DNA of 64,000 nucleotides, taken from contig OX328097.1 in the NCBI GenBank assembly GCA_946811185.2, positions 59,363,063-59,427,062 of the forward strand, written 5' to 3'. Of the stretch, positions 35,488-49,385 are shown one piece after another. This DNA comes from Hippopus hippopus. Lineage: Eukaryota; Mollusca; Bivalvia; Cardiida; Cardiidae. The notes below the pieces were generated by a model. The model searched no databases. It was not told the DNA's origin and saw nothing but the letters and a program-made list of their open reading frames with translations. The translations under genes and the position numbers were made by a program. Within the stretch, counting starts at the first letter, position 1. Each line of letters opens with the position of its first letter.

Positions 35488-36275
35488 TGAGTTGGACTTA
35501 GTTTTTTACCCTATGGATGATTTTTTTCTCTTTCTAATTGTCTGGACATTGAGTTGGACTTAGTCTATTTACCCTATGAATGATTTTCTCTCTTTCTAAA
35601 AGCCTGACCACTGAGTTGGACTTAGACTTTTTTCTACATCTCTATGAATGATTTCTCTTTTCTAAAAGGAATTTATCCCTATATCACTGAGTTGGACTTA
35701 GTTTTTTACCCTATGGATGATTTTTTTCTCTTTCTAAATGTCTGGACATTCAGTTGGACTTAGTCTTTTTCTGCAATTATGAATGATTTTCTCTCTAAAA
35801 GACTGAGCGCTGAGTTGGACTTAGCTTTTTTCACCCTATGAATGAATTCTCTTTTCTATTTGTCTAATCATTGAGTTGAACTTAGACTTTTTTTACCCAT
35901 ATGCTATTAGGATTGCTTTATTGTTTTACTTCTATCCACTACTTGACCTTTAAGTGGTTTCTCTCTAAAAGCCTGGCCATTGAGTTGGACTTAGACTTTT
36001 TTCTGCATCTCTATGTATGGTTTCTCTTTTCTAAAAGGAATTTATCCCTATATCACTGAGTTGGACTTAGCTTTTTCTTCATCTATGTATGATTTTTTCT
36101 TTTTAAATGTCCGAGCACTGAGTTGGGACTTAGTTTTTTCACCCTATGAATGATTTTCTCTCTTTCTAAAAGGATGACCATTGAGTTTGACTTAGTCTTT
36201 TTCTGCAATTATGAATGATTTTTTCTTTCTAAAAGACTGAGCATTGGGTTGGACTTAGTCTTTTTCTGAGTTTTT
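35488..36275. repeat. Minisatellite, about 12 units of ~60 bp, left arm
   Basis: Each unit begins near GAGTTGGACTTAG, continues with a T-run and a CTATGAATGATTTTCTC-like segment, and ends TCTAAAAG or similar. The right terminal repeat has about four units (49160-49385) and an internal array has about five (47275-47600). The copy-number difference accounts for the unequal arm lengths. Confidence 0.9.
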
Positions 36276-36399
36276 TTACTCTTTGCAGTATAACTCTCTG
36301 GAGTATAACTCTTTTGGAGTGCAACTCTTCTAAAAGAAGTTTGACAATTTGAAGAAATGACAATTTTGAAGAAAGATAGAACTTTCGTGGTAGCTGGTT

Positions 36400-36733
36400 A
36401 GTCCTGAAAAGGACTGTTGGGTTAGCTCTGAAAAGAGCTGTGACAATTTGAAGAAATGACAACTTGAAGATAGAACTTTCGTCTGACAGCTTGAAGGTAG
36501 AACTTTCGTCTGACATCTTGAGGATAGATCTTTCGTGGTAATGGTTAGTCCTGAAAAGGACTGTTGGGTTAGCTCTGAAAAGAGCTGTGGCAATTTGAAG
36601 AAATGACAACTTGAAGATAGAACTTTCGTCTGTCAGCTTGAAGGTAGAACTTTCGTCTGACATCTTGAAGATAGATCTTTCGTGGTAATGGTTAGTCCTG
36701 AAAAGGACTGTTGGGTTAGCTCTGAAAAGAGCT
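36400..36733 (-). repeat. 147-bp tandem repeat with paired histone-type stem-loops, left arm
   Basis: Three stem-loop pairs at 36400/36424, 36547/36571 and 36694/36718 are spaced exactly 147 bp apart. On the minus strand each pair reads AGCTCTTTTCAGAGCT then AGTCCTTTTCAGGACT. The segments between contain repeated ACGAAAGTTCTATCTTCAAG blocks. Because 147 is a multiple of three, frames stay open across the array; the 218-codon frame at 36229-36885 is a by-product. Confidence 0.9.
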
Positions 36734-36920
36734 GTGACAATTTGAAGAAATGACAACTTGAAGATAGAACTTTCGTCTGACAGCTTGAAGATAGAACTTT
36801 CGTCTGACAGTTTGAAGGTAGAACTTTCGTCTGACAATTTGAAGAAATGACAATTTGAAGAAAAGATAGAACTTACGTCTGACAATTTGAAGAAAGGTAG
36901 ATCTTCCGTGGTAGATGGTT

Positions 36921-36961
36921 AGCCCTGAAAAGGGCTGTTGGGGTGGTCCTAAAAAAGGACC
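36921..36961 (-). promoter_or_regulatory. Two histone-type 3' stem-loops, left arm
   Basis: On the minus strand GGTCCT-TTTTT-AGGACC (36945-36961) is followed by ACCCC, then AGCCCTTTTCAGGGCT (36921-36936) is followed by AACCATC and an ACGGAAGATC tract. They lie downstream of the truncated copy of the 75-aa gene. Confidence 0.8.
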
Positions 36962-36980
36962 TGGTTTGGAGGTTGTGTTT

Positions 36981-37088
36981 TTAAGCACAACCTCCAACCT
37001 TCCTGCACGCCGGACAGCTACTTGCAGCCCTCCTCTTCAGCCTTTTTAGTTGCTGCTCGTCCAAGGCGAAGTCCAACGAGAACGGTGG
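36981..37088 (-). pseudogene. 5'-truncated copy of the 75-aa gene
   Basis: It encodes the last ~35 codons of the right-arm gene, including the CPACRKVGGCA end, with only a synonymous difference noticed. The promoter cassette that follows at 37089 joins directly to mid-gene sequence. Compared with the right arm, 169 bp (48174-48342: leader, ATG and first ~40 codons) are missing, with CC shared at the junction, which suggests a microhomology deletion. Confidence 0.85.
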
Positions 37089-37250
37089 TTTTATAACTTT
37101 TCAGACGAATTGAACTAGTTGACCCATGACGTCATTTTCTCCTATGTTTTTCCCGCGTCGGCGTTTCATGCTGTTTTGGCTCCAAAATTAATGTTATCCA
37201 ATCAGAATTATCGTTGTTTTTCTAATACTAAATGTTTTATTGTTGACCAA
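37089..37250 (-). promoter_or_regulatory. P1 promoter cassette, left arm (orphan)
   Basis: On the minus strand, in order: CCAAT box as ATTGG (37198-37202), E2F-type GCGGGAAA (37149-37156), CRE TGACGTCA (37127-37134), GGGTCAACTAGTTCAAT, and TATAAAA (about 37090-37096). It is nearly identical to the cassettes upstream of the 68-, 104- and 75-aa genes, but here it faces the truncated gene. A partial tandem duplication of its upstream part lies at about 37250-37350. Confidence 0.85.
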
Positions 37251-37487
37251 CCCGCGTCGGTGTTTCATGCTATTTTGGCTCCAAATTAATGTTGTCCAAT
37301 CAGAATCAACGTTTTATTTCTAATACTAAATGTTTTATTGTTGACCAACCCGTGGCTTTGTTGCATTTTTTTGTTGTTCGGGGGTTAGAAAAAACTAGAG
37401 TTTGACTATTCTACGACTTTTTTGATTGTAAATCTTTTGAGTTTTTTGACAATTTTAAAAAAGATAGAACTTTCGTGTTAGATGGTT

Positions 37488-37503
37488 AGCGCTGAAAAGA
37501 GCT
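37488..37503 (-). promoter_or_regulatory. Histone-type stem-loop, one mismatch
   Basis: On the minus strand AGCTCTTTTCAGCGCT, followed by AACCATCTAACACGAAAG. One stem pair is lost (T opposite C). It lies after the broken copy of the 88-aa gene, so relaxation is plausible. Confidence 0.75.
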
Positions 37504-37535
37504 GTTTTGTTTTGGAGGCTATGTTTTTTCCACTT

Positions 37536-37767
37536 CTAATGGCAACACCCGAAATTCACTTGGCAAATGACTAAGATGATGTCAGGCGTTGTCTTTAAAA
37601 ATAGTTGAAGTAATCTTTCGCTGAGATCTTTTGTAGGGCTATGTTATAGGTTGTAGTTGGTTTTGTTCCTCCTCTCCTACGAAGTGAGTGTTTAGTTGTA
37701 ATAACTGTTGACCTGCATTTAGATATTCTTAGAGAGTCTCACGTAGTTGATAATTTATCTCCTCCAT
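37536..37767 (-). pseudogene. Broken copy of the 88-aa gene
   Basis: The start MEEINYQLRETL matches MEEVNHQLREAL of the intact gene at 46129, then a CAA-to-TAA change stops it after 12 codons. Homology continues to the matching stop position at 37536, but the copy is about 35 bp shorter. It retains its own P2 promoter and a mismatched stem-loop. Confidence 0.85.
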
Positions 37768-37960
37768 ATTGATACTGCTTCCGAATATTGACACTGCTTC
37801 CGAAGTGCTCGTTAGCTGAGAGCCAAAAAATGGTGAATGTATGAAAATAACGCTGGGCTTTATACGTTTACAGAGGCTTGAAATTTTTAAAGAGCTCGGG
37901 TCTGGCAGAAACCACATACATTTTTTCCATGCTGCGTTTCATGCTAATATAGCAAAAAAA
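37768..37960 (-). promoter_or_regulatory. P2 promoter cassette, copy at the broken gene
   Basis: On the minus strand it contains GAGCTCTTTAAAAATTTCAA, then TATAAAGC (37857-37864), then a GCGTTATTTTCATAC start region and a leader with CTCAGCTAACGAGCACTTCG. It is shared with the cassettes at 38922-39066 and 45950-46128. Confidence 0.8.
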
Positions 37961-38043
37961 GTTATGAGACGATGTATGGAAAAAATGTAGACAGAACAAG
38001 TCTTTGGGAAAAACAGAATGAAGAGCTCTATTGTTTTTGAACT

Positions 38044-38049
38044 TTTATT
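38044..38049 (-). terminator. AATAAA poly(A) signal for the 220-aa gene
   Basis: TTTATT on the plus strand lies about 210 bp beyond the stop of the 220-aa gene, with no histone-type stem-loop between. The mirror position in the right arm (45827-45843) serves the polymerase/218-aa side. Confidence 0.55.
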
Positions 38050-38059
38050 TTTTGAAAAG

Positions 38060-38230
38060 AACTAAACAATGAAACATTTTTTTTTTGCAAAGCATCATAA
38101 AAAATTTCTTGACAATGAAAAAATTTCTTGACAATGAAAAAATCACAAGGAAACATTTTTTACAATACAGCATAAAAACAGAATTAATCGCAAAAACAGT
38201 ATATAACAAATTTTTTACAATGCAAATTTC
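38060..38230. repeat. Short A/T-rich direct repeats, left
   Basis: TTCTTGACAATGAAAAAA occurs twice in tandem with related CAATG-containing units. This is the inverted, shorter counterpart of 45533-45815. Confidence 0.7.
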
Positions 38231-38258
38231 GCAAATACCACGAGTTTCATATTTGTTT

Positions 38259-38921
38259 TCATATTCCTACCGTTTTGTTGTTTTTTCTTGGTTGTTTTCG
38301 CTCTGTCTTTGGTTTTTTCGGGATCTTGAAATCAACGTGATTATCAATGTTTTTCCCGTATTTACCCTGGCCTGTCAATATTGGTGTAGTCGGTCTTTGA
38401 TCAACTCGCTGTTTCTTGTGGAGATGGCTAGCATCTTCCTCAGATTTCCGTTTTGTTGTTTTTCTTGGTTGTTTTTCCTCTGGTTGTTTTTTCTTTGGTT
38501 GATTTTTCTTCACAACACTTACGATAGAGTCCACTAACTTGTGAAGATTGGATTTATCAAAGTCGAACTCCACAGGGATCTTCACAGGAGTTGTTGAAAT
38601 GCACTGATCCTGTTGACGTAGTACCTCGATATTTCTACTGAGCTGCTCAGTACTTGTGCTTAAAGTTTTAATTTCCTCCAAATGTCTGTTTAAAGTCTCC
38701 AGCTGATCTATGATTCGGATCATCATGCTATCTTGTTTCAAATTTAGCTGCTTTACCTCTTCATAAATGTTGTCAAACACCGTCGCTGGAATGATAGTTG
38801 TCGAATTTAACTCCGGTGGTGGATTGGTGATTGTCGAATTTATAACTGATGAAAGAACGTCTCCATTGTTTTCCACTGGTGGAAAATCGTCCAAGTTGAT
38901 TTCATCTAAGTTGTGCTTCAT
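38259..38921 (-). CDS. 220-aa coiled-coil protein with basic tail, unknown function
   Basis: The start ATG (38919-38921) sits directly after the P2 leader. Residues 1-45 are acidic and polar. Residues ~50-110 have heptad spacing of I/L (FDNIYEEVKQLNLKQ, LETLNRHLEEIKTL), suggesting a coiled coil. Residues ~140-220 are very basic with several KK/KR clusters (KKKQPEEKQPRKTTKRK) that could be nuclear-localisation and DNA-binding segments. No catalytic motif is visible. Position beside the replication genes and the basic tail would suit a DNA-binding, terminal-protein-like or virion-core role, but this is a guess. The 3' end lies 8 bp from the inverted-arm boundary. An AATAAA at 38044-38049 probably ends the transcript. 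Confidence 0.8.
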   Translation of the reverse strand: MKHNLDEINLDDFPPVENNGDVLSSVINSTITNPPPELNSTTIIPATVFDNIYEEVKQLNLKQDSMMIRIIDQLETLNRHLEEIKTLSTSTEQLSRNIEVLRQQDQCISTTPVKIPVEFDFDKSNLHKLVDSIVSVVKKNQPKKKQPEEKQPRKTTKRKSEEDASHLHKKQRVDQRPTTPILTGQGKYGKNIDNHVDFKIPKKPKTERKQPRKNNKTVGI

Positions 38922-39066
38922 ATTGAAACTGCCTCTGAATATTGATACTGCTTGCGAAGTGATCGTTAGCTGAGAATCAAAGAAATGGTGTTTGGTATGA
39001 AATAACGCTGCGTTTTTATACGTTTACAGAGGATTGAAATTTTTAAAGAGCTCGGACCTGACGGAA
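38922..39066 (-). promoter_or_regulatory. P2 promoter cassette of the 220-aa gene
   Basis: On the minus strand: GGTCCGAGCTCTTTAAAAAT, then TATAAAAACG (39013-39020), a GCAGCGTTATTTCATACC start region and a leader with TCAGCTAACGATCACTTCGC running to the ATG. Promoter and leader match the 88-aa gene over ~140 bp although the encoded proteins differ. Confidence 0.8.
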
Positions 39067-39124
39067 AACACCAGGATTGAACTGTGTGACACCGAATTAG
39101 GAGTGGTAAAAAACACCAATATAA

Positions 39125-39269
39125 CCATCGATTTAATTGGGCAATGTTAATGAAACGCCGACGCGGGAAAAAACATAGGAGAAAATGACGTCATGGGTCA
39201 ACTAGTTCAATCCTCCTGTAAAGCTATAAAGCTCAGTGATATTTTACATAAAATCATATTTGTTCCAGA
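39125..39269 (+). promoter_or_regulatory. P1 promoter cassette of the 68-aa gene
   Basis: In order: ATTGG (39136-39140), E2F-type GCGGGAAA (39163-39170), CRE TGACGTCA (39186-39193), GGGTCAACTAGTTCAATC, and CTATAAA (39224-39230). The ATG follows 40 bp after the TATA box. Confidence 0.88.
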
Positions 39270-39476
39270 ATGGTTCGAATTCTTGTATGCCCTCACTGTG
39301 CAAGCAGATGTCTGATAGAGTGTGGAAAATGTTTTACCATACTTGAGTATCTTGGACAGAAACATAACTGTCCAGATACAGATGAAGGATTTTACGATGA
39401 TGATGAAGGTTCATCGACTTGTTGCGAACACTGTGGGTGCGAAATCATCCCGGTGGATCGGACGGAGGAGTCGTAG
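39270..39476 (+). CDS. 68-aa cysteine-rich, probable zinc-binding protein
   Basis: The ATG lies 40 bp after the TATA box of a P1 cassette, and the gene ends 31 bp before a histone-type stem-loop at 39508. The protein has CPHC at residue ~7, CLIECGKC at ~14-21, a lone C at ~34, an acidic stretch (DTDEGFYDDDEGSS) and a CCEHCGC cluster at ~51-57. Pairs of CxxC suggest a zinc ribbon or double zinc site. No family was recognised. It is the only small promoter-plus-stem-loop gene inside the core block. Confidence 0.82.
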   Translation: MVRILVCPHCASRCLIECGKCFTILEYLGQKHNCPDTDEGFYDDDEGSSTCCEHCGCEIIPVDRTEES

Positions 39477-39507
39477 GGCTGAATATCAATGTGAGATCCT
39501 TTTAAAA

Positions 39508-39523
39508 AGCCCTTTTCAGGGCT
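39508..39523 (+). promoter_or_regulatory. Histone-type 3' stem-loop of the 68-aa gene
   Basis: AGCCCTTTTCAGGGCT: six paired bases, TTTC loop, preceded by AAAA and followed by AACCATC and then ACGAAAGATC. This is the arrangement of a replication-dependent histone mRNA end. No AATAAA lies between the stop codon and the stem-loop. Confidence 0.88.
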
Positions 39524-39631
39524 AACCATCTATACGAAAGATCTTTCTTTCTTCAAAATTGTCAAAAGTAAAAAAAGACTTACAGTCACAACTAGAAAAA
39601 GTCAAAAGTAAGAAGTAATTATTTTATATTT

Positions 39632-39637
39632 TTTATT
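39632..39637 (-). terminator. AATAAA poly(A) signal for the 280-aa gene
   Basis: TTTATT on the plus strand lies about 150 bp beyond the stop of the minus-strand 280-aa gene. No stem-loop lies in between on this strand. Confidence 0.5.
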
Positions 39638-39786
39638 TCAAAAAAGAACTTATGTACAATGAAAAAATCAAATCATGAACTGTAAAAACAAAAAAAATGA
39701 ATGAACTGTAAAGACAAAAAAATGAATGAAAAAATCAAGTCAGTCTTTTTGTTTAAATTCAATATTGTGTCGAAATCTTTTTTCAC

Positions 39787-40629
39787 TCAGTAAGTTTTTC
39801 TTTTTTTCTTTGGGATGTCAGATTCACATTTGGTTTTACGTTTTCTTTTCCTATCGTTGTTTTTTAATACCACATCTGGACAGATTTTATCCTCGTGTTT
39901 TGTTGATTTGTAAAAGAAACAGTTCTTTGTTACTCGTTTTTTCTTCTTTTCGTTGTTTTGCTGTTTTTCCTCTCCGTACGAACAACCCGCTTCTGCAGAA
40001 AAATCGTTGTTTTTTAGATCCGAAGTTTGTTGTTTTCTTAGATTTTTTCGTAATGTCTCTAAATCATCTGCTATTTTGCAGATTTCTGAATCGTTGATAT
40101 CCGTCGTGTCGCTCTGCATGTCTACGGTCTGAGTTTCAACCGATGACGATGTAGCTTGTGGTGAACTTTTTTTCCATGTATTTCCACTGCAGAATGAATT
40201 TAGTGTGCCGACGAATTTTATATCTTTGAGACCATCAACGTTGTAAAACGATAGTAAAATCTCAATGTCGTGACTGTGCGGATTCACGTAGACAAAAACA
40301 ATTGTTCCTAGCTGATTTTCTTTTTCTGGACATTCTTTGGCCCAATGTCCTGCTTCGTTGCATGTGAAACAAATATTTGTTCTCTCGCCATTCGTACCAT
40401 ATCGTTTGTCAATCGTCGCTTGATCCAAAACTCTGTAGCTGGTAGTACGGTAAACATCTTTTTCTTCTAAATGTTGCTGGGATAAAAATGATCCCACATA
40501 GTTTCCGATATGTTTAACATTATACTTTGATGGTATATTGCTGATCTCATAATCGTGGGTGTATGGATTAACATACAGATACACCCTCTTTCTAAGTGGT
40601 GATGTATTTTGCAGCTTTAACTCGCTCAT
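39787..40629 (-). CDS. 280-aa zinc-knuckle protein with internal duplication
   Basis: Two related segments occur: RVYLYVNPYTHDYEI (~residues 15-29) continuing to YNVKHIGNYVGSFL, and IVFVYVNPHSHDIEI (~109-123) continuing to VDGLKDIKFVGTLNSF. Each is followed by a CCHC-type knuckle. The first is perfect (CFTCNEAGHWAKEC, CX2CX4HX4C). The second (CFFYKSTKHEDKIC) has Tyr for the second Cys. The tail is strongly basic (RKRKRKTKCESDIPKKKRK). CCHC knuckles bind single-stranded nucleic acid in retroviral Gag and many transposon proteins, so a nucleic-acid chaperone or single-strand binding role near a protein-primed polymerase is reasonable. It shares a divergent promoter with the polymerase gene and has TATAAATA 70 bp upstream of its ATG. 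Confidence 0.85.
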   Translation of the reverse strand: MSELKLQNTSPLRKRVYLYVNPYTHDYEISNIPSKYNVKHIGNYVGSFLSQQHLEEKDVYRTTSYRVLDQATIDKRYGTNGERTNICFTCNEAGHWAKECPEKENQLGTIVFVYVNPHSHDIEILLSFYNVDGLKDIKFVGTLNSFCSGNTWKKSSPQATSSSVETQTVDMQSDTTDINDSEICKIADDLETLRKNLRKQQTSDLKNNDFSAEAGCSYGEEKQQNNEKKKKRVTKNCFFYKSTKHEDKICPDVVLKNNDRKRKRKTKCESDIPKKKRKTY

Positions 40630-40787
40630 ATTTTTTTATCAGCTGTACTGTTTGAGATTGAGTAGGAGAATGATTAGATTTTCACAACTATCGTCTCTAT
40701 TTATACACTGTTACAACGGAGAGGCTATATAAATTGTCAGTTTTTTCTCACTTCTGCATTATTGTCTTTTCACTCAGAGCTAAAACG
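40630..40787. promoter_or_regulatory. Bidirectional promoter between zinc-knuckle and polymerase genes
   Basis: Two opposed TATA boxes: TATAAATA on the minus strand (40698-40705) and TATATAAA on the plus strand (40726-40733), with only 20 bp between. They lie 69 and 55 bp from the respective ATGs. Neither the P1 nor the P2 cassette is present, so the replication genes are controlled separately. Confidence 0.75.
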
Positions 40788-41663
40788 ATGGGTAAAAAAA
40801 AAAGAATAATAACCTACTCAGACAGCGAAAGTGACGATGAGGTGTTTCCACCAACAAAAAAGAAAAAAACTAGACCTTTGAAAGAAGAAAGTGACGATGA
40901 GATATTTCCAGCAATAAAAAAGAAAAAAACTAAACCGTTGAAAGAAGAAAATGACAGCGACGATGAAAGTATCAACTCTAACTTAGACATGAAAAGTCTA
41001 TATGATTTAACAGAAAAGGGAAATAAGAAGTCAAGAAAATTTAAAACAGAATCACATGTGCTGATGCTGAGTTTTAAGAAATTTGAAGAATTAACACCTC
41101 AGAGACTACTTGGATTATTTGACGATGTTACCCATGAAATCATTCGAAAGTTAAATGCTAACCCTACGGACATGATTAGAATTACCATCAATCATCCTTC
41201 GTTGGAAATAGGAATCCATATTCCTTTTTTAGCTGCAGACCAGTTACAAGGTGAAACTATGCTGAATGAAATTGAACGAGTTTTACAATCGAATACAGAT
41301 TTCGTCTTGAACGATGGATTAATGACATTTGACATTACACATACAATACCACCAAGTGGTAGCGGAAAACAAAAATATAGATCGTCAGAATTAGATTCGA
41401 AGATTTTTGCCCAGAAGAAGCAATCTATTATACAAATTGGTAATCATGACCAACTATGTTTTGCAAGAGCTGTTGTTATGGGAATTTGCTACAGTGAACG
41501 TGAAAACACCGAAGTATGGAATAGAAAATGGCGTCGTATTTGTCGTTCAAAACACCTTTTTCAAAAGACTGAAGCTGAGAAATTGTTAAATGAAGCTGGA
41601 GTTTCACCAAACCAGTCTGTAGGAATTGATGAATACAAAAAAAATTCAAACATTCTTGTATGA
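40788..41663 (+). CDS. N-terminal part of the PolB polyprotein (291 aa), out of frame with the rest
   Basis: The ATG at 40788 (context AACGATGG, 55 bp after TATATAAA) is preferred over an upstream TTG. The first ~65 residues hold two acidic-basic repeats (SDSESDDEVFPPTKKKK, ESDDEIFPAIKKKK) that look like nuclear-localisation segments. Residues ~75-235 are not recognised. Then IGNHDQLCFARAVVMG and a following W..R..R...Q..EAEKLL..AGV segment correspond to a region usually found upstream of the exonuclease domain in metazoan Polinton polymerases. The frame ends shortly after GIDEYKK at an A8 run (41637-41644). The polymerase continues in another frame, overlapping by 35 bp. One extra A, or a programmed shift, would explain the split. 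Confidence 0.82.
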   Translation: MGKKKRIITYSDSESDDEVFPPTKKKKTRPLKEESDDEIFPAIKKKKTKPLKEENDSDDESINSNLDMKSLYDLTEKGNKKSRKFKTESHVLMLSFKKFEELTPQRLLGLFDDVTHEIIRKLNANPTDMIRITINHPSLEIGIHIPFLAADQLQGETMLNEIERVLQSNTDFVLNDGLMTFDITHTIPPSGSGKQKYRSSELDSKIFAQKKQSIIQIGNHDQLCFARAVVMGICYSERENTEVWNRKWRRICRSKHLFQKTEAEKLLNEAGVSPNQSVGIDEYKKNSNILV

Positions 41664-44600
41664 AAAAGGCTATGTCATTAAAGTTCACCAACAGCATTCA
41701 AAAGTGGAAAAAATATTTAAACATCCAGAAGTGAAAGCCAATAGTAAGATTATACATTTGTACTTTCATCAAAACCATTATGACTACATCAAATCTATCA
41801 AAGGTTTTCTTAGTTGTGGATATTATTGTGAGTTCTGTGATGTGGGTTACTCTAACCGAGAAAATCATGCTTGTTCAAATATCTGCAAAGGTTGTTATCG
41901 CAAAGGAAAATGTCCATCAGAATCAAAAGAATATGTTTGCAGTTATTGCAATAGACGGTTTTTTAGTGCTGAATGCTTTGAAAATCACAGAAATGTACAA
42001 GGTAAAGAAAAGAAATCCATTTGTGTATTAGTAAAACTCTGCTCGAAATGCGGTGCACAATATCATGACAGAAAGAAAAATCATGTTTGCAATGGAAAGA
42101 AAAGATGTCATATCTGTAAGAGAATTGTTAACTTTTCTCATCAATGCTATATTCAACCTTACCAAAGTAAGTTGAACCATGACAGCGATGACGAGACGAG
42201 TTCTTCTGTAGTCAAAAAACCACAGTTTTTCTTTGATTTTGAATGCAAACAAGACACAGGCGTACACATCCCGAATTATTGTATCGCACACAGAGCGTGT
42301 GATGTATGTATCGATAAATCACTTGATTTTCATTGTTCTACATGCAGTGAATTTGAAGAGGGCCGGGAAGTTATTTTTCAAGGTGAAGAAACTTTGAGTA
42401 AATTTTGCAACTGGCTCTTTTCAAAACATCATAAAGGGGTTACGGCTATTGCCCATAATTTCAAAGGCTATGACGGTCAGTTCATTCTTGACTATATTGT
42501 CAAAGTTGGGTTAAAACTTCCAAAATTGATCATGAATGGAAACAATATTATGAAGTTAGAACTGAATGGTGTACGTCTGATCGATTCTTTCAATTTCATG
42601 AGTTTTGGTTTGGCAAAATTTCCACCCACCTTTGGTCTTCAAGAAATGAAAAAAGGTTACTTTCCTCACTGGGCAAATACAGATGAATTTTGGAGTTACA
42701 TTGGACCCTACTTGGATATGACTTATTACAAACCCGACTCAATGTCTGAAGAGGCTAGGTCAAAATTCATAGTTTGGTATAATGACAAAGTTCGAAATGG
42801 TGAGGAATTCAATTTTCAGAAGGAGATGGAATTGTACTGTAGGTCAGATGTTGATATCCTCAGACGAGGGTGTGCTGAATTCAGAAAGCTGTTTATCGAA
42901 CAGGGTGGTATTTGTCCATTTTTAGAGGCGATTACCATCGCAGATGCCTGTAACAAGGTGTGGCGAAGCAAATATTTACCAGAAAATCAAATAGCTATCA
43001 TTTCAAGTAAAGACTCATCCAGACGTCGCTTTTCTATGAAAGCGATACGATGGGTTCAAAGCGTTGCTCAGGAAAAAGGTATTATTATTCAGCATGCAAA
43101 AAATGGTGGTGAAGCTCAAATCGGGAAATATAGTGTAGATGGTTTTCACCGTCAATCAAACACTGTTTATGAATTTCTTGGGGATTTGTATCATGGTTGT
43201 CCTGTATGCTATACAGATCGAAAACAGATCAATCCTATTAATGGAAAACCCATGTCTGAATTGTACGAACGTACTTTTGAACGTATAGCAGATATCGAAG
43301 AAATGGGATATAATGTAGTGTACATTTGGGAACACGAATTTGATGCTAAGATGAAGGATAAAGAGTACAAAAAACTCATTGAAAAGTTATATCCACATTG
43401 GGACCCTATCGATCCGAGGGATGGTTTGTCCGGGGGAAGATGTAATGCAATAAAAATTGGATATGATGTTGATGAAAAAACCAAAAAGGAAATCAAGTAC
43501 ATCGATATCTGTTCTCTATACCCTTATGTTTGTAAACACAAATCCTACCCTGTAGGTCAGCCAAAAATTTTGTCTGCTGAGAATATTGATATGAACAATA
43601 TTCGGCAATATGAGGGATTAATCAAGTGTAAAGTTCTACCTCCAACTGATTTGTTTCACCCCGTTCTCCCAGTTCACTGTAACAACAAAATGATGTTTCC
43701 ACTCTGTATGAAATGTGCAGAAGAAAGCTCAAACATTTGTAGACATGGTAAAGAAGAGAGGGCTTTGGTCGGAACTTGGGTTACTTTTGAATTATTCAAG
43801 GCTCTTGACTGCGGTTATCGATTATTGCAAGTGTATGAAATTTGGCATTTCAATTCTGTGTCAGATCAGTTCTTTAAACATTATGTGGACAATTTCTTGA
43901 AAATTAAGCAAGAAGCCAGTGGTTATCCAGATTGGTGTCAATCAGACTCAGAAAAAGATCAGTTCGTTTGTGAATATGAGAAGGCGGAAGGTGTTCGTCT
44001 TGATCCAAGTTGTATTCAAAGAAATCCTGGGAGAAGATCATTTGCTAAGATTATGTTGAACTGTCTTTGGGGAAAATTAGCTCAGCGTGAAAAAATGACC
44101 CAGACGGAATACATCAGTGATCCGTCTAAATATTTTGAATTAGTCACCAATCCCAAGATCATTGTAAAGCATGTAGAAATCTTTGACGAGAACTGTTCAT
44201 TCATCTTGGTTAACTATGAATCAAAGTTGGAACATATTGACACCCACGCTACAGCCAATGTGGTAGTAGGTTCTTACGTAACAGCTTATGCAAGGTTGGA
44301 ATTGTACAGCGTTCTTGAAAAGTTAAAAGATAGAGTTCTGTATTTCGATACAGATAGTTGTATGTACATTCACGACCCTGAATTATGGAATCCTCCTATT
44401 ATTAACAGCCGGTTAGGAAAATGGACTGATGAAGAGCCTGCTTGTAAAATTACTCAATTCAGAGGACTTGGACCTAAGAATTATGCTTACAAAATGAAAA
44501 CAAAAGATGGAAAAGAGATAAGCAAATGTAAAGTAAAGGGGATTACTCTGGATTACAATACAAAACAGGTGCTAAATTTCGATACATATTCGAAATGTGC

Positions 44601-44775
44601 TTTGGATCGCACAATAGAAATCAAAATTCAGTATGATTGTAGAATTAAAAGACACAGAGATAGAACGGTTACCAGTGAACCACAAACAAAAACGTTTCGT
44701 TCTGTATACACCAAGAGAGTTATTGTAAATGGTACTGATACTGTACCCTATGGTTATAAAAGTTTGAGAAAATAA
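41629..44775 (+). CDS. polB: Protein-primed family B DNA polymerase (Polinton type), main ORF
   Basis: Residue numbers count from the in-frame TTG codon at 41626, one codon before the first ATG; the true start is probably in the upstream frame. Residues ~65-175 hold many CxxC/H pairs (CEFC, CKGC, CSYC, CSKC, CHIC). The 3'-5' exonuclease has FDFE (D204, E206), AHNFKGYD (D283) and YCRSDVD (Y404, D408). Residues ~494-560 (VDGF..YEFLGDLYHGCP) resemble the nuclease-like insertion common in these proteins. GGR (~603) may be the YxGG-type motif. The polymerase has motif A DICSLYP (D627), motif B KIMLNCLWGK (K808), motif C YFDTDS (D908, D910) and KNY (951-953). All catalytic residues are present. It copies linear DNA from a protein primer bound at the inverted-repeat ends. 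No AATAAA or stem-loop follows before the 218-aa gene. Confidence 0.95.
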   Translation: MNTKKIQTFLYEKGYVIKVHQQHSKVEKIFKHPEVKANSKIIHLYFHQNHYDYIKSIKGFLSCGYYCEFCDVGYSNRENHACSNICKGCYRKGKCPSESKEYVCSYCNRRFFSAECFENHRNVQGKEKKSICVLVKLCSKCGAQYHDRKKNHVCNGKKRCHICKRIVNFSHQCYIQPYQSKLNHDSDDETSSSVVKKPQFFFDFECKQDTGVHIPNYCIAHRACDVCIDKSLDFHCSTCSEFEEGREVIFQGEETLSKFCNWLFSKHHKGVTAIAHNFKGYDGQFILDYIVKVGLKLPKLIMNGNNIMKLELNGVRLIDSFNFMSFGLAKFPPTFGLQEMKKGYFPHWANTDEFWSYIGPYLDMTYYKPDSMSEEARSKFIVWYNDKVRNGEEFNFQKEMELYCRSDVDILRRGCAEFRKLFIEQGGICPFLEAITIADACNKVWRSKYLPENQIAIISSKDSSRRRFSMKAIRWVQSVAQEKGIIIQHAKNGGEAQIGKYSVDGFHRQSNTVYEFLGDLYHGCPVCYTDRKQINPINGKPMSELYERTFERIADIEEMGYNVVYIWEHEFDAKMKDKEYKKLIEKLYPHWDPIDPRDGLSGGRCNAIKIGYDVDEKTKKEIKYIDICSLYPYVCKHKSYPVGQPKILSAENIDMNNIRQYEGLIKCKVLPPTDLFHPVLPVHCNNKMMFPLCMKCAEESSNICRHGKEERALVGTWVTFELFKALDCGYRLLQVYEIWHFNSVSDQFFKHYVDNFLKIKQEASGYPDWCQSDSEKDQFVCEYEKAEGVRLDPSCIQRNPGRRSFAKIMLNCLWGKLAQREKMTQTEYISDPSKYFELVTNPKIIVKHVEIFDENCSFILVNYESKLEHIDTHATANVVVGSYVTAYARLELYSVLEKLKDRVLYFDTDSCMYIHDPELWNPPIINSRLGKWTDEEPACKITQFRGLGPKNYAYKMKTKDGKEISKCKVKGITLDYNTKQVLNFDTYSKCALDRTIEIKIQYDCRIKRHRDRTVTSEPQTKTFRSVYTKRVIVNGTDTVPYGYKSLRK

Positions 44776-44856
44776 TTTCATATCACATTGTTGTGTACCA
44801 ATCAGTCAAAGTAAGTCGGGGAAAAAATATTACCCATTGGTCAAAAAATAACAATC

Positions 44857-45513
44857 ATGTTACCGTTACCAATAGAACTACGTGAAAAAATTTATGGAGA
44901 ATTTGTTCAGCAGCATACGCTTGATAAACGAACACAGCTTAATATTAAATTTTTCTGTGTGAAAATTTGGATCAAAAAAATGTTTAAATGGGGTGCAAAA
45001 GGAGAAAAGTCATACAAAGTGTATGGCATATTCAACTTTATAGCGATGATGGTGGACGATTCGGGTTTTGATCTCGATCTCAAGACTCATTTAGCAGATA
45101 GCTGCTTGAAAGACAATGTTATTAGTAAACTGTTTCGATCCACAAGTCGATGGACATTTTTTATCATAGGAAGAACAGAAGAAAGTTTTCTTAACGTTGT
45201 GAAAATGAAATCAGTTCTATTTGACTTTTACTTACGGTACAAAAAAGGATCTGTTCATGATTCCTACGGAGAAACAATGGAAACCATGTCAGGGTATATT
45301 CTATTTGATAGAGATGTTACAGAAGAAGTAGTGAATTCAGCTCTTTCAACAAAAGACGCTTATAGACATGTTGCTCCATTCATAGGACTACGAGATTTCG
45401 ACGATATGGACAGTGAGTATACAATGTTTTTGGGGTATGACCAATTGCATAAAGACATTACGGAATATGAAAACAAATGTGAATCTCGTGGTATTTGCGA
45501 ATTTGCATTGTAA
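44857..45513 (+). CDS. 218-aa protein, unknown, F-box-like start
   Basis: It begins 81 bp after the polymerase stop on the same strand with no TATA box, and may share the polymerase transcript or use a weak promoter. The first 20 residues (MLPLPIELREKIYGEFVQQH) recall the LPxEL...I start of an F-box, but the rest of that fold is not convincing. The remainder mixes hydrophobic and charged residues (WTFFIIGRTEESFLNVVKMK, YILFDRDVTEEVV) and ends CESRGICEFAL, without repeats or Cys clusters. No catalytic triad is recognisable. Its last ~10 codons and 3' flank also occur inverted at the inner end of the left arm (38220-38251). AATAAA signals at 45827-45843 probably end the transcript. Confidence 0.8.
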   Translation: MLPLPIELREKIYGEFVQQHTLDKRTQLNIKFFCVKIWIKKMFKWGAKGEKSYKVYGIFNFIAMMVDDSGFDLDLKTHLADSCLKDNVISKLFRSTSRWTFFIIGRTEESFLNVVKMKSVLFDFYLRYKKGSVHDSYGETMETMSGYILFDRDVTEEVVNSALSTKDAYRHVAPFIGLRDFDDMDSEYTMFLGYDQLHKDITEYENKCESRGICEFAL

Positions 45514-45532
45514 AAAATTTGTTGTATACTGT

Positions 45533-45815
45533 TTTTTGCGAATAATTCATTGTGAAAAAATAATTCAGTGTGATTTTTTTCATTGTGATTAATTCATTGT
45601 AAATAATTCATTGCAAAAAAAATATTTCAGTGTGATTTTTTCATTGTGATTAATTCATTGTAAATAATTCATTGTTAAGAAATTTTTTCAGTGTGATTTT
45701 TTTCATTGTTAAGAAAATGTTTTTTATGCTGTATTGTAAAAATGTTTCCTTGTGATTTTTTCATTGTCAAGAAATTTTTTTAAGATGCATTGCAAAAAAT
45801 GTTTCATTGTTTAGT
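45533..45815. repeat. AT-rich tandem repeats after the 218-aa gene
   Basis: Units built from AATTCATTGT, CAGTGTGATTTTTTCATTG and related strings repeat about four times at ~70-75 bp spacing. No gene is present. The left arm holds a shorter inverted version. Confidence 0.8.
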
Positions 45816-45826
45816 TCTGTTCGGTA

Positions 45827-45843
45827 AATAAAAGTTCAATAAA
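45827..45843 (+). terminator. Two AATAAA poly(A) signals
   Basis: AATAAA at 45827-45832 and 45838-45843, in a repeated AATAAAAGTTCA. They follow the polymerase/218-aa block. There is no histone-type stem-loop between the 218-aa stop and these signals. Confidence 0.6.
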
Positions 45844-45949
45844 TAAAAGTTCAAAAAAACAATAGAGCTCTTCATTCTGTTTTTTCCCCAAAGACTTGTT
45901 CTGTCTACATTTTTTCCATACAGCGTCTCATAACTTTTTTTTGCTATAT

Positions 45950-46128
45950 TAGCATGAAACGTAGCATGGAAAAAATGTATGTGCTTTCTGCCAGGTCCGA
46001 GCTCTTTAAAAATTTCAATCCTCCTTAAACGTATAAAACTCGGCGTTATTTTCATACAATCACCATTTCTTGATTCTCAGCTAACGATCACTTCGAAAGC
46101 AGTGTCAATATTCGGAAGCAATATCAAT
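45950..46128 (+). promoter_or_regulatory. P2 promoter cassette of the 88-aa gene
   Basis: GGTCCGAGCTCTTTAAAAAT, then TATAAAA (46032-46038), a CGGCGTTATTTTCATACA start region and a leader with CTCAGCTAACGATCACTTCG up to the ATG at 46129. Confidence 0.82.
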
Positions 46129-46395
46129 ATGGAGGAGGTAAATCATCAACTACGTGAGGCTCTCCAAGAGTATCTAAATGCCGGGCAGCAGTTATTGCAA
46201 CTAACCACTCATCTCGTAGGAGAGGAGGAACAAAACCAACTACAACGTATAACACAGCCATACAAAGATCTCGGCGAAAGATTAGTTCAACTATTATTAA
46301 AGACAACACCGGATATCATTTTGGTTGATATCGAATTTGGGAGGAAGATTACAGCATGTCCTATTTGCCAAGCGAATTTCGGGTGTTGCCATTAG
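46129..46395 (+). CDS. 88-aa helical protein with C-terminal Cys motif
   Basis: The ATG at 46129 (context ATCAATATGG) starts MEEVNHQLREALQEYLNAGQ. The frame is also open upstream through the promoter, but that part is leader. Residues 1-65 are rich in L/Q with heptad-like spacing, suggesting a coiled coil or helical bundle. The end is TACPICQANFGCCH, a compact C-x2-C..CC-H group that may hold zinc. The 75-aa protein ends similarly (CPACRKVGGCA). The stop is 33 bp before a histone-type stem-loop at 46429. A copy in the left arm is broken by a nonsense change. Function unknown. Confidence 0.8.
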   Translation: MEEVNHQLREALQEYLNAGQQLLQLTTHLVGEEEQNQLQRITQPYKDLGERLVQLLLKTTPDIILVDIEFGRKITACPICQANFGCCH

Positions 46396-46428
46396 AAGTG
46401 GAAAAAACACAGCCTCCAAAAACAAAAC

Positions 46429-46444
46429 AGCCCTTTTCAGGGCT
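46429..46444 (+). promoter_or_regulatory. Histone-type 3' stem-loop of the 88-aa gene
   Basis: AGCCCTTTTCAGGGCT, preceded by AAAAC and followed by ACCCATC, which includes the canonical ACCCA at histone mRNA ends. The tract ACCACGAAAGTTC follows 8 bp later, at the usual place of the purine-rich histone downstream element. Confidence 0.92.
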
Positions 46445-46614
46445 ACCCATCTACCACGAAAGTTCTATCTTTTTTTCAAATTGTCAAAACTCAAAAGATT
46501 TACAATCAAAAAAAGTCATAGAATAGTCAAACTCTAGTTTTTCTATCCCCGAACAAGAAAAAATGCAACAAAACCACGGGTTGGTCGACAATAAAACATT
46601 TAGTATTAGAAATA

Positions 46615-46778
46615 AAACGGTGATTCTGATTGGATAACATTAATTTTGGAGCCAAAACAGCATGAAACGCCAACGCGGGAAAAACATAGGAGAAAATGAC
46701 GTCATGGGTCAACTAGTTCAATCCGTCTGAAAAGCTATAAATCTCGGCGATTTATTTTCCATACATTTCATTTTCACA
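46615..46778 (+). promoter_or_regulatory. P1 promoter cassette of the 104-aa gene
   Basis: ATTGG (46629-46633), E2F-type GCGGGAAA (46675-46682), CRE TGACGTCA (46697-46704), GGGTCAACTAGTTCAATC, CTATAAA (46735-46741). The ATG follows 37 bp after the TATA box. Confidence 0.88.
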
Positions 46779-47093
46779 ATGGCTACGATAGCACCACTTC
46801 TTGGTACTTGGATGGATGCTGAGCGAAAGTTAATAAGAGCAAGGAGGCAAATCGTCTTACTTAAACAACGCTTAGCTGGAGTGAGAAGACGATACGAGAG
46901 GGCTGAGCTTGCTAATAACAGGGTGTTCTGTTATAACCTTCGGATGAAGGAACTCATTATTGAGGGCATGCTTGAGATGTATTTTCAGTATGTTATTTCA
47001 AAAACTGAGCAGGTGACCCGTCTTTTCCGCGCGCAAATCGCCGCTGAAAGGAGTGAGTCAGACAGCGAATCGACTGATGCTGATACTGAATAA
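46779..47093 (+). CDS. 104-aa coiled-coil protein with acidic end
   Basis: The ATG (context TCACAATGG) lies 37 bp after the TATA box of a P1 cassette. Residues ~12-50 are strongly basic and helical (ERKLIRARRQIVLLKQRLAG, then VRRRYERAE), with leucine spacing of a coiled coil. Residues ~60-90 are hydrophobic-helical (EGMLEMYFQYVISKTEQV). The last 15 residues are acidic and Ser-rich (ERSESDSESTDADTE). The arginine-rich helix could be a bZIP-like basic region, but no true bZIP signature is seen. No copy exists in the left arm. A histone-type stem-loop lies 33 bp after the stop. Confidence 0.8.
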   Translation: MATIAPLLGTWMDAERKLIRARRQIVLLKQRLAGVRRRYERAELANNRVFCYNLRMKELIIEGMLEMYFQYVISKTEQVTRLFRAQIAAERSESDSESTDADTE

Positions 47094-47126
47094 ACATTTT
47101 CAAAAAATCAGCTCTTCTCAAAAAAC

Positions 47127-47142
47127 AGCCCTTTTCAGGGCT
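47127..47142 (+). promoter_or_regulatory. Histone-type 3' stem-loop of the 104-aa gene
   Basis: AGCCCTTTTCAGGGCT, preceded by AAAAAC and followed by AACCATC and ACGAAAGATC. Confidence 0.9.
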
Positions 47143-47274
47143 AACCATCTACCACGAAAGATCTATCTTTCTTCAAATTGTCATTTCTTCAAATTGTCAA
47201 ACTTCTTTCTTTTTAGAAGAGTTACACTCCAAAAAGAGTTACACTCCAGAGAGTTACGCTGAAAAGAGCAAAAA

Positions 47275-47600
47275 ACTCAGAAAAAAGACTAAGTCCAACT
47301 CAATGGTCAGACAATTAGAAAGAAAAAATCATCCATAGATGTAGAAAAAACTAAGCCCACCTCAGTGCTCAGACATTTAGAAAGAAAAAATCATACATAG
47401 GTGAAGAAAAAACTAAGTCCAACTCAATGCTTAGACATTTAGAAAGAGAATTCATTCATAGATGCAGAAAAAGACTAAGCCCAACTCAGTGCTCAGACAT
47501 TTAGAAAGAGAAATCGTCCATAGATGTTGAAAAAAGTCTAAGTTTAACTCAGCGATATAGGGACAAATTCCATTTAGAGAGAAAAAACCATTCATAGGAT
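47275..47600. repeat. Internal minisatellite array, about 5 units
   Basis: Units starting near ACTAAGTCCAACTCAATG match the arrays of both terminal repeats in the plus-strand sense. The segment before it (GAAGAGTTACACTCC..) also matches the right terminal repeat, so a direct duplication of repeat sequence separates the 104- and 46-aa genes. Confidence 0.85.
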
Positions 47601-47624
47601 GAAAAAAAATAAAAAAGTGATCCA

Positions 47625-47706
47625 TTACACATATAAAACACTAAACTCTTGATTATTTTTCTCATTCACCATTAACTTTTCGTAAAACCTGAACCAGGAT
47701 CCCACA
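47625..47706 (+). promoter_or_regulatory. TATA promoter of the 46-aa gene
   Basis: CATATAAAACAC at 47629-47640 lies about 70 bp before the ATG. Neither the P1 nor the P2 cassette is present here. Confidence 0.5.
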
Positions 47707-47847
47707 ATGTTTGGATTAACATTTTTTCTCTTATTGCTCTTCTGGTTAGAAGAAAGAGAACGTTTCAGATATATCAGACATGAAATTGAGCATCTGATGC
47801 AAATGCTAGATAAAATGGAATCAATCAAAAGAAAGAGAGGAGGATAA
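47707..47847 (+). CDS. 46-aa membrane-anchored microprotein
   Basis: The ATG in CCCACAATGT opens MFGLTFFLLLLFWLEERERF, a hydrophobic N-terminal segment of ~13 residues that could insert in a membrane. A charged helix with I/L/M spacing follows (RHEIEHLMQMLDKMESI), ending in KRKRGG. A TATA-like CATATAAAA lies ~70 bp upstream and a stem-loop related to the histone type lies 27 bp downstream (47874). That spacing matches the other small genes and supports it being real despite its size. Function unknown; small single-pass proteins of this form are common in viruses. It has no copy in the left arm. Confidence 0.6.
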   Translation: MFGLTFFLLLLFWLEERERFRYIRHEIEHLMQMLDKMESIKRKRGG

Positions 47848-47873
47848 AAAAGTGCATTCTGTACAAAAAAAGC

Positions 47874-47889
47874 AACCCTTTTCAGGGCT
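47874..47889 (+). promoter_or_regulatory. Histone-type stem-loop, one mismatch, 46-aa gene
   Basis: AACCCTTTTCAGGGCT: the loop and four stem pairs nearest it fit, but the second pair is A opposite C. It is followed by AGCTATC and then AAACATCTTTC, so the downstream tract is weaker than elsewhere. Confidence 0.65.
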
Positions 47890-48054
47890 AGCTATCTTAA
47901 ATAAACATCTTTCTTTTCATTTTGTCAGAAGACTCATAATCAAAAAAAGTCATAGGTTAGTTAAACTCTAGTTTTTTCTAACCCGAACAAGAAAATGTAA
48001 CAAAACCACGGATTGGTCAAAAATAAAACATTTAGTATTAGAAAAACAACGGTG

Positions 48055-48222
48055 AATCTGATTGGATAACATTAATTTGGAGCCAAAACAGCATGAAACG
48101 CCGACGCGGGAAAAACATAGGAGAAAATGACGTCATGGGTCAACTAGTTCAATCCGTCTGAAAAGTTATAAAACCCAGCGGCATTTCCCGCACATCATTC
48201 ATTCTCTTCAAGTTGCTGCAAC
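48055..48222 (+). promoter_or_regulatory. P1 promoter cassette of the 75-aa gene
   Basis: ATTGG (48061-48065), E2F-type GCGGGAAA (48106-48113), CRE TGACGTCA (48128-48135), GGGTCAACTAGTTCAATC, TATAAAA (48167-48173). The leader also contains CATTTCCCGC, a second E2F-like site, at about 48183-48192. Confidence 0.88.
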
Positions 48223-48450
48223 ATGGAGTGTGCGTTGAGAGACATGAGTTTTTCCAAACTTGCACAGCTGGCATCCAAAGAAAAAAAGAAGAAGAAGGAG
48301 TTCGTCGTGCCCCAGACCGAGTGCTGGGATAGTGACAACGAGCCACCGTTCTCGTTGGACTTCGCCTTGGACGAGCAGCAACTAAAAAGGCTGAAGAGGA
48401 GGGCTGCAAGTAGCTGTCCGGCGTGCAGAAAGGTTGGAGGTTGTGCTTAA
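48223..48450 (+). CDS. 75-aa protein with C-terminal CPxC motif, spans the terminal-repeat edge
   Basis: The ATG at 48223 lies ~50 bp after the TATA box of a P1 cassette. Residues ~20-27 are a lysine run (KEKKKKKEF). Residues ~34-48 are acidic/hydrophobic (CWDSDNEPPFSLDFAL), ~50-60 basic (QQLKRLKRR), and the end is SSCPACRKVGGCA. The CPxC-x4-GC ending recalls the 88-aa protein. The right terminal repeat starts within codon ~41, so only the 3' half is duplicated in the left arm. The stop codon lies in the loop of a hairpin (48430-48465), and histone-type stem-loops follow at 48470 and 48495. No known family recognised. Confidence 0.78.
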   Translation: MECALRDMSFSKLAQLASKEKKKKKEFVVPQTECWDSDNEPPFSLDFALDEQQLKRLKRRAASSCPACRKVGGCA

Positions 48451-48465
48451 AAACACAACCTCCAA
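48430..48465 (+). promoter_or_regulatory. Hairpin around the stop codon of the 75-aa gene
   Basis: GGAGGTTGTG pairs with CACAACCTCC around a CTTAAAAA loop, and the TAA stop is in the loop. It is present in both arms. Its role is unknown. Confidence 0.7.
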
Positions 48466-48469
48466 ACCA

Positions 48470-48510
48470 GGTCCTTTTTTAGGACCACCCCAACAGCCCT
48501 TTTCAGGGCT
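48470..48510 (+). promoter_or_regulatory. Two histone-type 3' stem-loops of the 75-aa gene
   Basis: GGTCCT-TTTTT-AGGACC (48470-48486; five-base loop, ACCCC after it), then AGCCCTTTTCAGGGCT (48495-48510; AACCATC after it, then ACGGAAGATC). The first has the G-C closing pair of canonical histone stem-loops. Confidence 0.85.
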
Positions 48511-48697
48511 AACCATCTACCACGGAAGATCTACCTTTCTTCAAATTGTCAGACGTAAGTTCTATCTTTTCTTCAAATTGTCATTTCTTCAAATTGTCAG
48601 ACGAAAGTTCTACCTTCAAACTGTCGGACGAAAGTTCTATCTTCAAGCTGTCAGACGAAAGTTCTATCTTCAAGTTGTCATTTCTTCAAATTGTCAC

Positions 48698-49031
48698 AGC
48701 TCTTTTCAGAGCTAACCCAACAGTCCTTTTCAGGACTAACCATTACCACGAAAGATCTATCTTCAAGATGTCAGACGAAAGTTCTACCTTCAAGCTGACA
48801 GACGAAAGTTCTATCTTCAAGCTGTCATTTCTTCAAATTGCCACAGCTCTTTTCAGAGCTAACCCAACAGTCCTTTTCAGGACTAACCATTACCACGAAA
48901 GATCTATCCTCAAGATGTCAGACGAAAGTTCTACCTTCAAGCTGTCAGACGAAAGTTCTATCTTCAAGTTGTCATTTCTTCAAATTGTCACAGCTCTTTT
49001 CAGAGCTAACCCAACAGTCCTTTTCAGGACT
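48698..49031 (+). repeat. 147-bp tandem repeat with paired stem-loops, right arm
   Basis: Pairs at 48698/48722, 48845/48869 and 48992/49016 are spaced 147 bp. Each pair is AGCTCTTTTCAGAGCT then AGTCCTTTTCAGGACT, each followed by AACCC or AACCA, with ACGAAAG tracts after. The 225-codon frame over this region (48546-49223) comes from the repeat length being divisible by three. Confidence 0.9.
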
Positions 49032-49159
49032 AACCAGCTACCACGAAAGTTCTATCTTTCTTCAAAATTGTCATTTCTTCAAATTGTCAAACTTCTTTTA
49101 GAAGAGTTGCACTCCAAAAGAGTTATACTCCAGAGAGTTATACTGCAAAGAGTAAAAAA

Positions 49160-49385
49160 AACTCAGAAAAAGACTAAGTCCAACCCAGTGCTCAGTCTTT
49201 TAGAAAGAAAAAATCATTCATAATTGCAGAAAAAGACTAAGTCCAACTCAATGGTCATCCTTTTAGAAAGAGAGAAAATCATTCATAGGGTAAAAAGACT
49301 AAGTCCAACTCAATGTCCAGACATTTAGAAAGAGAAAAAAATCATCCATAGGGTAAAAAACTAAGTCCAACTCAATGCTCCCCCC
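49160..49385. repeat. Minisatellite, about 4 units, right arm
   Basis: ACTAAGTCCAACTCAATG-type units at about 49168, 49233, 49297 and 49361. These match the ~12-unit array of the left arm. Confidence 0.9.

Follow-up and report, generated by a model that had tools for sequence, protein, structure and literature searches.

Small non-histone genes with histone-type 3' signals and promoter boxes in a Polinton-type element of the bivalve Hippopus hippopus

We have analysed a window of 64,000 nucleotides from the bivalve Hippopus hippopus (GenBank assembly GCA_946811185.2, contig OX328097.1, positions 59,363,063 to 59,427,062 of the forward strand), and find in it a Polinton-type mobile element in which four small non-histone genes (g68, g138, g104 and g75) end in the 3' signal of the host's own histone genes and carry histone-type promoter boxes. 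A host histone 3' signal together with histone upstream boxes makes transcription in S phase likely and predicts mRNAs without poly(A). We consider it very likely that the four genes yield mRNAs of this class, predicted to be bound by the stem-loop-binding protein (SLBP) and cut with the U7 small nuclear ribonucleoprotein (snRNP). Cleavage, SLBP binding, absence of poly(A) and S-phase timing are properties that we infer from the sequence of the element, and the evidence for them is set out below.

Element genes ending in the host's histone signal

Histone genes of the host form a repeat cluster (C15:40.57-41.47 Mb), from which three stretches were fetched, the first of them (L082) holding all five genes. 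The 3' flanks of H1, H2A, H2B, H3 and H4 carry the hairpins GGCCCTTTTAAGGGCC, GGCCCTTATCAGGGCC and GGTCCTTTTCAGGACC, followed at about +12 by a CGAAAG-like stretch, which is weak in H2A and departs from the motif at one or two positions in the other four genes, and at +29 to +33 past the hairpin by ATTGTCA, which is exact in four flanks and has one mismatch in H2B. ATTGTCA was the best 7-mer common to the five flanks, and was equalled in none of 300 shuffles. Independently of the element, it may belong to the histone processing signal of the host genes as a component that has so far gone unrecognised. The four intact element genes repeat this layout, with a hairpin lying 31-44 nucleotides (nt) past the stop, compared with 28-39 nt in the host histone genes, and with CGAAAG (CGGAAG in g75) at +12/+13 and ATTGTCA at +35/+36 past the hairpin. 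The initial annotation took these for mRNA 3' ends of the histone type. A host histone hairpin, a CGAAAG-type element and ATTGTCA at nearly equal spacing speak for this proposal, and on these sequence features we hold it to be strongly supported.

A covariance model trained solely on the five host histone ends (R1) points to the same places. Across the window its top 13 sites all fell within the element (E 1.2e-8 to 0.0064); the one ranked after them, at E 0.46, was still inside the element, and the best site outside it had an E of 0.55. The model scored its own training ends at 65.8-76.6 bits, against 50.5 bits for the best element site in the window, and in 20 other copies of the element it returned 125 sites at E 0.01 or better.

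The element hairpins are beyond chance. The element has 17 perfect hairpins, with six Watson-Crick pairs around CTTTTCAG; the remaining 49,463 bases of the window have none. When the element was dinucleotide-shuffled 300 times, such hairpins averaged 0.017 per shuffle and never numbered more than 1. The initial count of at least 20 copies agrees with the 21 present once two 17-nt GGTCCTTTTTTAGGACC hairpins (48470 on the plus strand and 36945 on the minus strand) and two imperfect ones (47874-47889, and 37488-37503 on the minus strand) are added. These are not independent sites, because the arm at 36271-37088 is 100% complementary to that at 48343-49160, and 147-bp tandem repeats contain the terminal hairpins; we therefore reject the notion of 20 independent copies, and count about eight distinct sites.

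Other early claims about the hairpins hold in a narrower form. The rule that a hairpin shares the coding strand of its closest small gene stands for the four intact genes and fails for the terminal-repeat copies, all of which point outward and have no genes of their own. The described downstream AMCCATC and ACGAAAG are present at 39508, 46429 and 47127, and 48495 has ACGGAAG instead. That the small genes end in hairpins is true of g68, g138, g104 and g75 and not of g49 (47707-47847), which has a broken hairpin and AATAAA, so that a signal on every small gene is rejected. Compensating stem changes were found as described, with 36 of 36 cells paired and three of the six pairs changed on both sides among eight hairpins (six distinct) from the element, the host and a relative introduced below (L049), although six rows are few and this counts as supporting evidence only.

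Upstream of the genes, the g138 and host H1 promoters have in common GTGCTTTC..CCAGGTCCG.GCTCTT (score 20), and the g68 and host H2B promoters ..TCAATCCTCCT..TATA (score 17), against a highest score of 16 in a control of 20 single-letter shuffles over all 25 pairs. The H1 box is also found with the 220-amino-acid gene (score 17), which is without a hairpin, so the promoter and 3'-end halves are not always together. All other element/host promoter pairs score 14 or less, within the shuffle range. Two further boxes mark the element itself: TGACGTCA occurs four times in it and nowhere in the rest of the window, and CGCGGGAAAA, which we take to be E2F-like, occurs four times in it and once outside. 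Neither was seen as an exact match in the five host histone promoters, and thus they form no part of the likeness to the host.

The larger genes, as well as the small gene with the broken hairpin, have AATAAA, and the element would thus run two programmes. For PolB the nearest AATAAA is at +1052, beyond the 218-amino-acid gene, with ATTAAA at +169, and AATAAA is absent within 190 nt for g68, g138, g104 and g75.

Conservation among copies and relatives

The host genome (1.07 Gb) carries the element in many copies; the best 44 of 3,950 PolB candidates and the best 40 of 1,194 g68 candidates were scored, all with at least 97% identity. In alignments with the window included (18 rows for g138, 20 each for g104 and g75), the three perfect hairpins examined had no variable column among 48, gaps set aside. 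Variable columns numbered 5 of 16 in the broken g49 hairpin and 7 of 17, partly through length change, in the 17-nt hairpin. For g138 and g104, minority letters amounted to 0.5-2% in the stretch from the stop to the hairpin, and to 5-6% past the signal. They amounted to just 0.5% after g49, so quiet stretches exist without the signal, and as the aligned rows share ancestry, hairpin conservation is not a formal rate test. The apparent variability of the g138 ATTGTCA is a matter of length differences in the neighbouring T-run, and ATTGT is present in 18 of 18 rows. A length filter had dropped L016, L021 and L027 from the g138 alignment, L016 from that of g104 and L028 from that of g75; a hairpin scan of the dropped rows found the g138 hairpin intact in L021 and L027.

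Genome-wide, the element form of the signal (hairpin core, AMCCAT and ATTGTCA) occurs at 884 places and the histone (G-C) form at 245, with no place for the reversed-pattern control of either. One of the 884 places, when opened (L120), proved to be a further g68 copy with the signal in place. Of the first 100 entries in the list of 245, the histone cluster accounts for 95, and one lies by a lone histone match at C15:26.49M; the same 100 include lone histone-type 3' ends outside the cluster at C6:34126857, C5:51913823 and C12:1939959. At C3:4.21M, the last of these 100 entries to be accounted for, there is a g104 homologue with 49% amino-acid identity over 88 residues and 64% nucleotide identity, ending in a hairpin 26 nt past the stop, CGAAAAG and AATTGTCAA. 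The first pair of this hairpin is A.C, between the A-U of the element and the G-C of the host. In a large protein database g104 had no homologue.

Relatives were sampled as five genome_contigs and 16 distant IMG/VR PolB loci, many of them partial contigs. With Rfam at gathering run on 12 of these 21 (L031-L051) and R1 on nine, L049 alone stood out. This locus (CALIZB010000033.1) is an 8.9-kb Polinton contig in a Bacteroidia metagenome-assembled genome (MAG), with PolB, an rve integrase whose chromo-like end is below the Pfam cut-off, and likely capsid and protease genes, judged by position alone. At the contig end, its 89-amino-acid C2H2 zinc-finger gene is followed by 28 nt and then by GGCCCTTATCAGGGCC ACCCC and AAAAAAGAGA, and the promoter of this gene has three TGACGTCA. 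Its hairpin scores 35.8 bits with RF00032, the Rfam histone 3'-end model, which is above gathering, and 27.7 bits (E 0.0047) with R1. L049 and the element are alike in PolB (with about 36% identity over the best segment), in a small gene with a histone-type 3' end and in a TGACGTCA promoter; they differ in that L049 has an integrase and a C2H2 zinc-finger small gene and has no ATTGTCA box.

PolB relatives also occur under Thiodiazotropha and Omnitrophica MAG names, and the relatives in bacterial MAGs, L049 among them, are likely host DNA in bacterial bins. IMG/VR held no close PolB relative and no element-type hairpin. G-C hairpin patterns at 6 + 7 IMG/VR loci were rejected as candidates; their flanks look like chance matches, and none of the 13 reaches RF00032.

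Mechanism, contrary evidence and alternatives

In the histone pathway, according to sections of PMC7026596, SLBP binds the hairpin, the U7 snRNP binds the histone downstream element and cleavage falls between them. The host has the SLBP RNA-binding domain, in two exons above cut-off (C11:6982951-6984266), and the element has a candidate downstream element of the CGAAAG type at the host histone position. We propose that histone-type promoter factors would turn the small genes on during cell DNA replication, that SLBP would bind the hairpin of the pre-mRNA while the U7 snRNP pairs with the CGAAAG stretch, and that the cleavage complex would cut past the ACCA-like tail. The short mRNA would then be translated, and lost as S phase ends. 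One of the two programmes of the element would in this way be tied to the period in which it can copy itself.

Several results weigh against this proposal. RF00032, suggested as a check at the outset, gave no window match at its gathering score of 34. Below threshold it gave 11 (best 28.5 bits, E 1.3e-4); the host's own histone ends score 30.0-35.2 bits, with one of five above 34, and thus the gathering threshold misses true cases in this species. The first stem pair is A-U in the element, as originally noted, and G-C in all five host genes. ATTGTCA is missing at the expected place after the two terminal-repeat hairpins tested in the window copy (48722 and 48869). AATAAA lies 195 nt past the g138 stop and 115 nt past the L049 zinc-finger stop, so read-through to poly(A) is possible; beside this stands AATAAA at 93 and 120 nt past the hairpins of host H2A and H2B. 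Among copies of the element, L016 has one mismatch in the g138 hairpin and lacks the g104 hairpin, L026 has a partly deleted g138 hairpin, and the hairpin scan did not find the g75 hairpin in L028. A strict hairpin scan had no match in four of the five genome_contigs and 15 of the 16 IMG/VR relatives, many of them partial, and the sole IMG/VR match (L043) is without a histone-like flank.

The machinery supplies a further contrary point, as the host U7 snRNA was not identified by a pattern search with Rfam on the first 10 places. The pattern CTTTCN{0,16}ATTTSTCTAG occurs at 141 genome places and its reversed control at 224, which is no enrichment, and none of the 22 places read by eye and folding had a U7-like 3' stem. 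Rfam on the first 10 gave a single match to RF00066, at 15.9 bits (E 4.3), far under the cut-off of 34. A small family of repeats in which AATTTCTCTAG follows CAAGAGCTCTTTCAGTAGG (C11:56.80M, 56.81M, 56.83M; C7:9.26M) is U7-like but has neither the 3' stem nor Rfam support, and was set aside.

Three other explanations were weighed. The hairpins and CGAAAG repeats could work as DNA when the element replicates or integrates, by offering sites for binding or by folding its ends, with their adjacency to genes following from nearness to the ends. Many copies do belong to 147-bp tandem units of the terminal repeats and have no gene of their own, and ACGAAAG recurs between the terminal-repeat hairpins. 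However, the sites at 39508 and 46429 are far inside the element, each of the four intact genes has a coding-direction hairpin at a short distance past its stop, the spacing and ATTGTCA agree with host histone genes, and the broken hairpin is accompanied by AATAAA, all of which makes a DNA-level role quite improbable.

It is harder still to credit that the arrays are mainly a sponge, in which hairpin/CGAAAG units titrate SLBP or the U7 snRNP off host histone mRNAs and delay exit from S phase. Six extra hairpins per terminal repeat and the 884 hairpin-plus-box places in the genome would suit such a role, but it presupposes an otherwise unsupported transcription of the terminal repeats, and it leaves the position after stops and the histone-like promoters unexplained. 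Least credible is that the histone 3' ends are passive passengers captured from the host and unused: mobile elements do pick up host sequence, the likeness to host histone flanks is detailed and a few copies have a lost or mutated hairpin, but the absence of variable hairpin columns beside neighbouring stretches with 0.5-6% minority letters, the retention of the signal both in L049, an unrelated Polinton, and after a homologue of 49% identity, and the pairing of stem changes all argue otherwise.

Beyond the histone-type ending of the four genes, a wider reading is probable. A virus-derived element would have placed its own non-histone genes wholesale under the host histone programme, at promoter and 3' end alike, providing the first known class of non-histone animal mRNA with a histone hairpin and not poly(A). 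In more than one lineage of animals, PolB elements would so tie their activity to S phase, and ATTGTCA would belong, so far unrecognised, to the processing signal of this animal group. If so, S-phase timing is open to a parasite that has no viral regulator for it, and transcripts of the small genes would escape poly(A)-selected data. Additionally, with its many copies of the element and its histone cluster, the host genome offers a natural mutational series for the signal, ATTGTCA included.

The element and known systems

The range first given for the element, 36400-49031, was too small, and its true span is listed in Table 1 with its features. A second copy (C7:48.8M) has GACAGA flanks on both sides, so that a 6-bp target duplication is found in two of two copies with both ends in hand. 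Among the end regions of 12 further copies, C7:48.8M included, the left end was found in 10 and the right end in one, the remaining ends being altered or beyond the fetched stretch. AG...CT ends and 6-bp duplications are Polinton traits. Each terminal repeat tip also carries a 23-bp imperfect palindrome (GGAGGGTCGTCT...), at 35171-35223 and 49639-49691.

Table 1. Features of the element, in window coordinates
Feature	Positions	Strand	Details
Whole element	35162-49700		14,539 bp; Polinton-type ends AGTAGTATAGG...CCTATACTACT; GATGCA 6-bp duplication on both sides
Left terminal inverted repeat region	35162-37088		hairpins facing outward (minus strand); 147-bp tandem repeats
Mismatched hairpin after decayed left g138 copy	37488-37503	-	CGAAAG +13, ATTGTCA +35; R1 40.3 bits
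220-amino-acid gene	38259-38921	-	histone-like promoter box; AATAAA +210; no hairpin within 1.3 kb
g68 promoter boxes	39162-39246	+	CGCGGGAAAA, TGACGTCA, TTCAATCCTCC, TATAAA; host H2B promoter similar
g68	39270-39476	+	small gene, 68 amino acids, Cys-rich
Hairpin after g68	39508-39523	+	CGAAAG 39535-39540, ATTGTCA 39558-39564; R1 50.4 bits, E 1.3e-8
280-amino-acid CCHC zinc-knuckle gene	39787-40629	-	AATAAA +150; without hairpin
PolB (PF03175)	41626-44775	+	without hairpin downstream; upstream frame 40788-41663 separate in window copy
218-amino-acid gene	44857-45513	+	AATAAA +314; weak Rep-like fold
g138 promoter box	45981-46006	+	GTGCTTTCTGCCAGGTCCGAGCTCTT, like host H1 GTGCTTTCGACCAGGTCCGCGCTCTT; score 20
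g138	46129-46395	+	88 amino acids from ATG following TATA box; 138-amino-acid open frame from 45979
Hairpin after g138	46429-46444	+	CGAAAG 46457-46462, ATTGTCA 46480-46486; R1 50.5 bits, E 1.2e-8
g104 promoter boxes	46674-46741	+	CGCGGGAAAA, TGACGTCA, TTCAATCC, TATAAA
g104	46779-47093	+	small gene, 104 amino acids
Hairpin after g104	47127-47142	+	CGAAAG 47155-47160, ATTGTCA 47177-47183; 0/16 columns variable, 20 rows
g49	47707-47847	+	46 amino acids, contrast case; imperfect drifting hairpin 47874-47889, without CGAAAG; AATAAA +53 past stop
g75 promoter boxes	48105-48175	+	CGCGGGAAAA, TGACGTCA, TTCAATCC, TATAAA
g75	48223-48450	+	small gene, 75 amino acids
Right terminal inverted repeat region	48343-49700		hairpins facing outward (plus strand)
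17-nt hairpin GGTCCTTTTTTAGGACC	48470-48486	+	loop length differs among copies
Hairpin after g75	48495-48510	+	CGGAAG 48523-48528, ATTGTCA 48545-48551; 0/16 columns variable, 20 rows
Three repeats, each with one AGCTCT and one AGTCCT hairpin	48698-49031	+	mirror at 36400-36733, minus strand

The element encodes PolB, a 280-amino-acid CCHC protein, proteins of 218 and 220 amino acids and five small genes. Pfam scans of nine element proteins matched PolB to PF03175 (E 4.7e-45), and recognised no integrase (RVE), capsid, ATPase, protease or packaging gene and no histone family among the nine. A complete Polinton is not supported, as integrase and capsid were not recognised. The named ones among 120 listed PolB homologues, of 660, are mostly from bivalves, with sea cucumbers, cnidarians and insects in addition. 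The PolB frame is split in the window copy (40788-44775), and is a single frame of about 1,350 codons in most of the 44 scored copies.

The 218-amino-acid protein beside PolB has 32 unnamed homologues. In a low-confidence model of it (predicted local distance difference test, pLDDT, 60), the middle domain is weakly like circovirus Rep (6wdz, E 4.8e-4, rank 3), below two chains of one unrelated unknown protein in the structure ranking. Three of the hairpin-ended proteins (39270-39476, 46129-46395 and 48223-48450) have Cys pairs near the C-terminus (ACPICQANFGCC, SCPACRKVGGC and CCEHCGC), which are perhaps a shared metal-binding end.

With animal replication-dependent histone genes, the element shares a 6-bp hairpin of the SLBP type with a 4-nt loop, a G-C second pair, a CTTTTCAG-type core, an ACCA-like tail, a purine element at about +12 and a short distance from stop to hairpin, and with those of this host also the ATTGTCA box and the promoter boxes. 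Unlike them, its genes are non-histone, its first pair is A-U and its RF00032 scores in the window are below gathering. With Polinton/Maverick elements it has in common a PF03175-type PolB, terminal inverted repeats, AG...CT ends and a 6-bp target duplication, but no integrase, capsid or packaging gene was recognised among its nine tested proteins. Adintoviruses, as portrayed in parts of PMC11071296, are alike in PolB and Polinton-like organisation and unlike in their defining integrase and virion genes, which were not found in the element. For Polintons, adintoviruses and other mobile elements, no 3' ends of the histone type are reported in the open-access titles and starts of abstracts that were searched, nor in sections of PMC11071296, PMC7026596, PMC1924863 and PMC6303110. 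A Polinton-type element and a histone 3' end are each known, and their union is, as far as searched, new.

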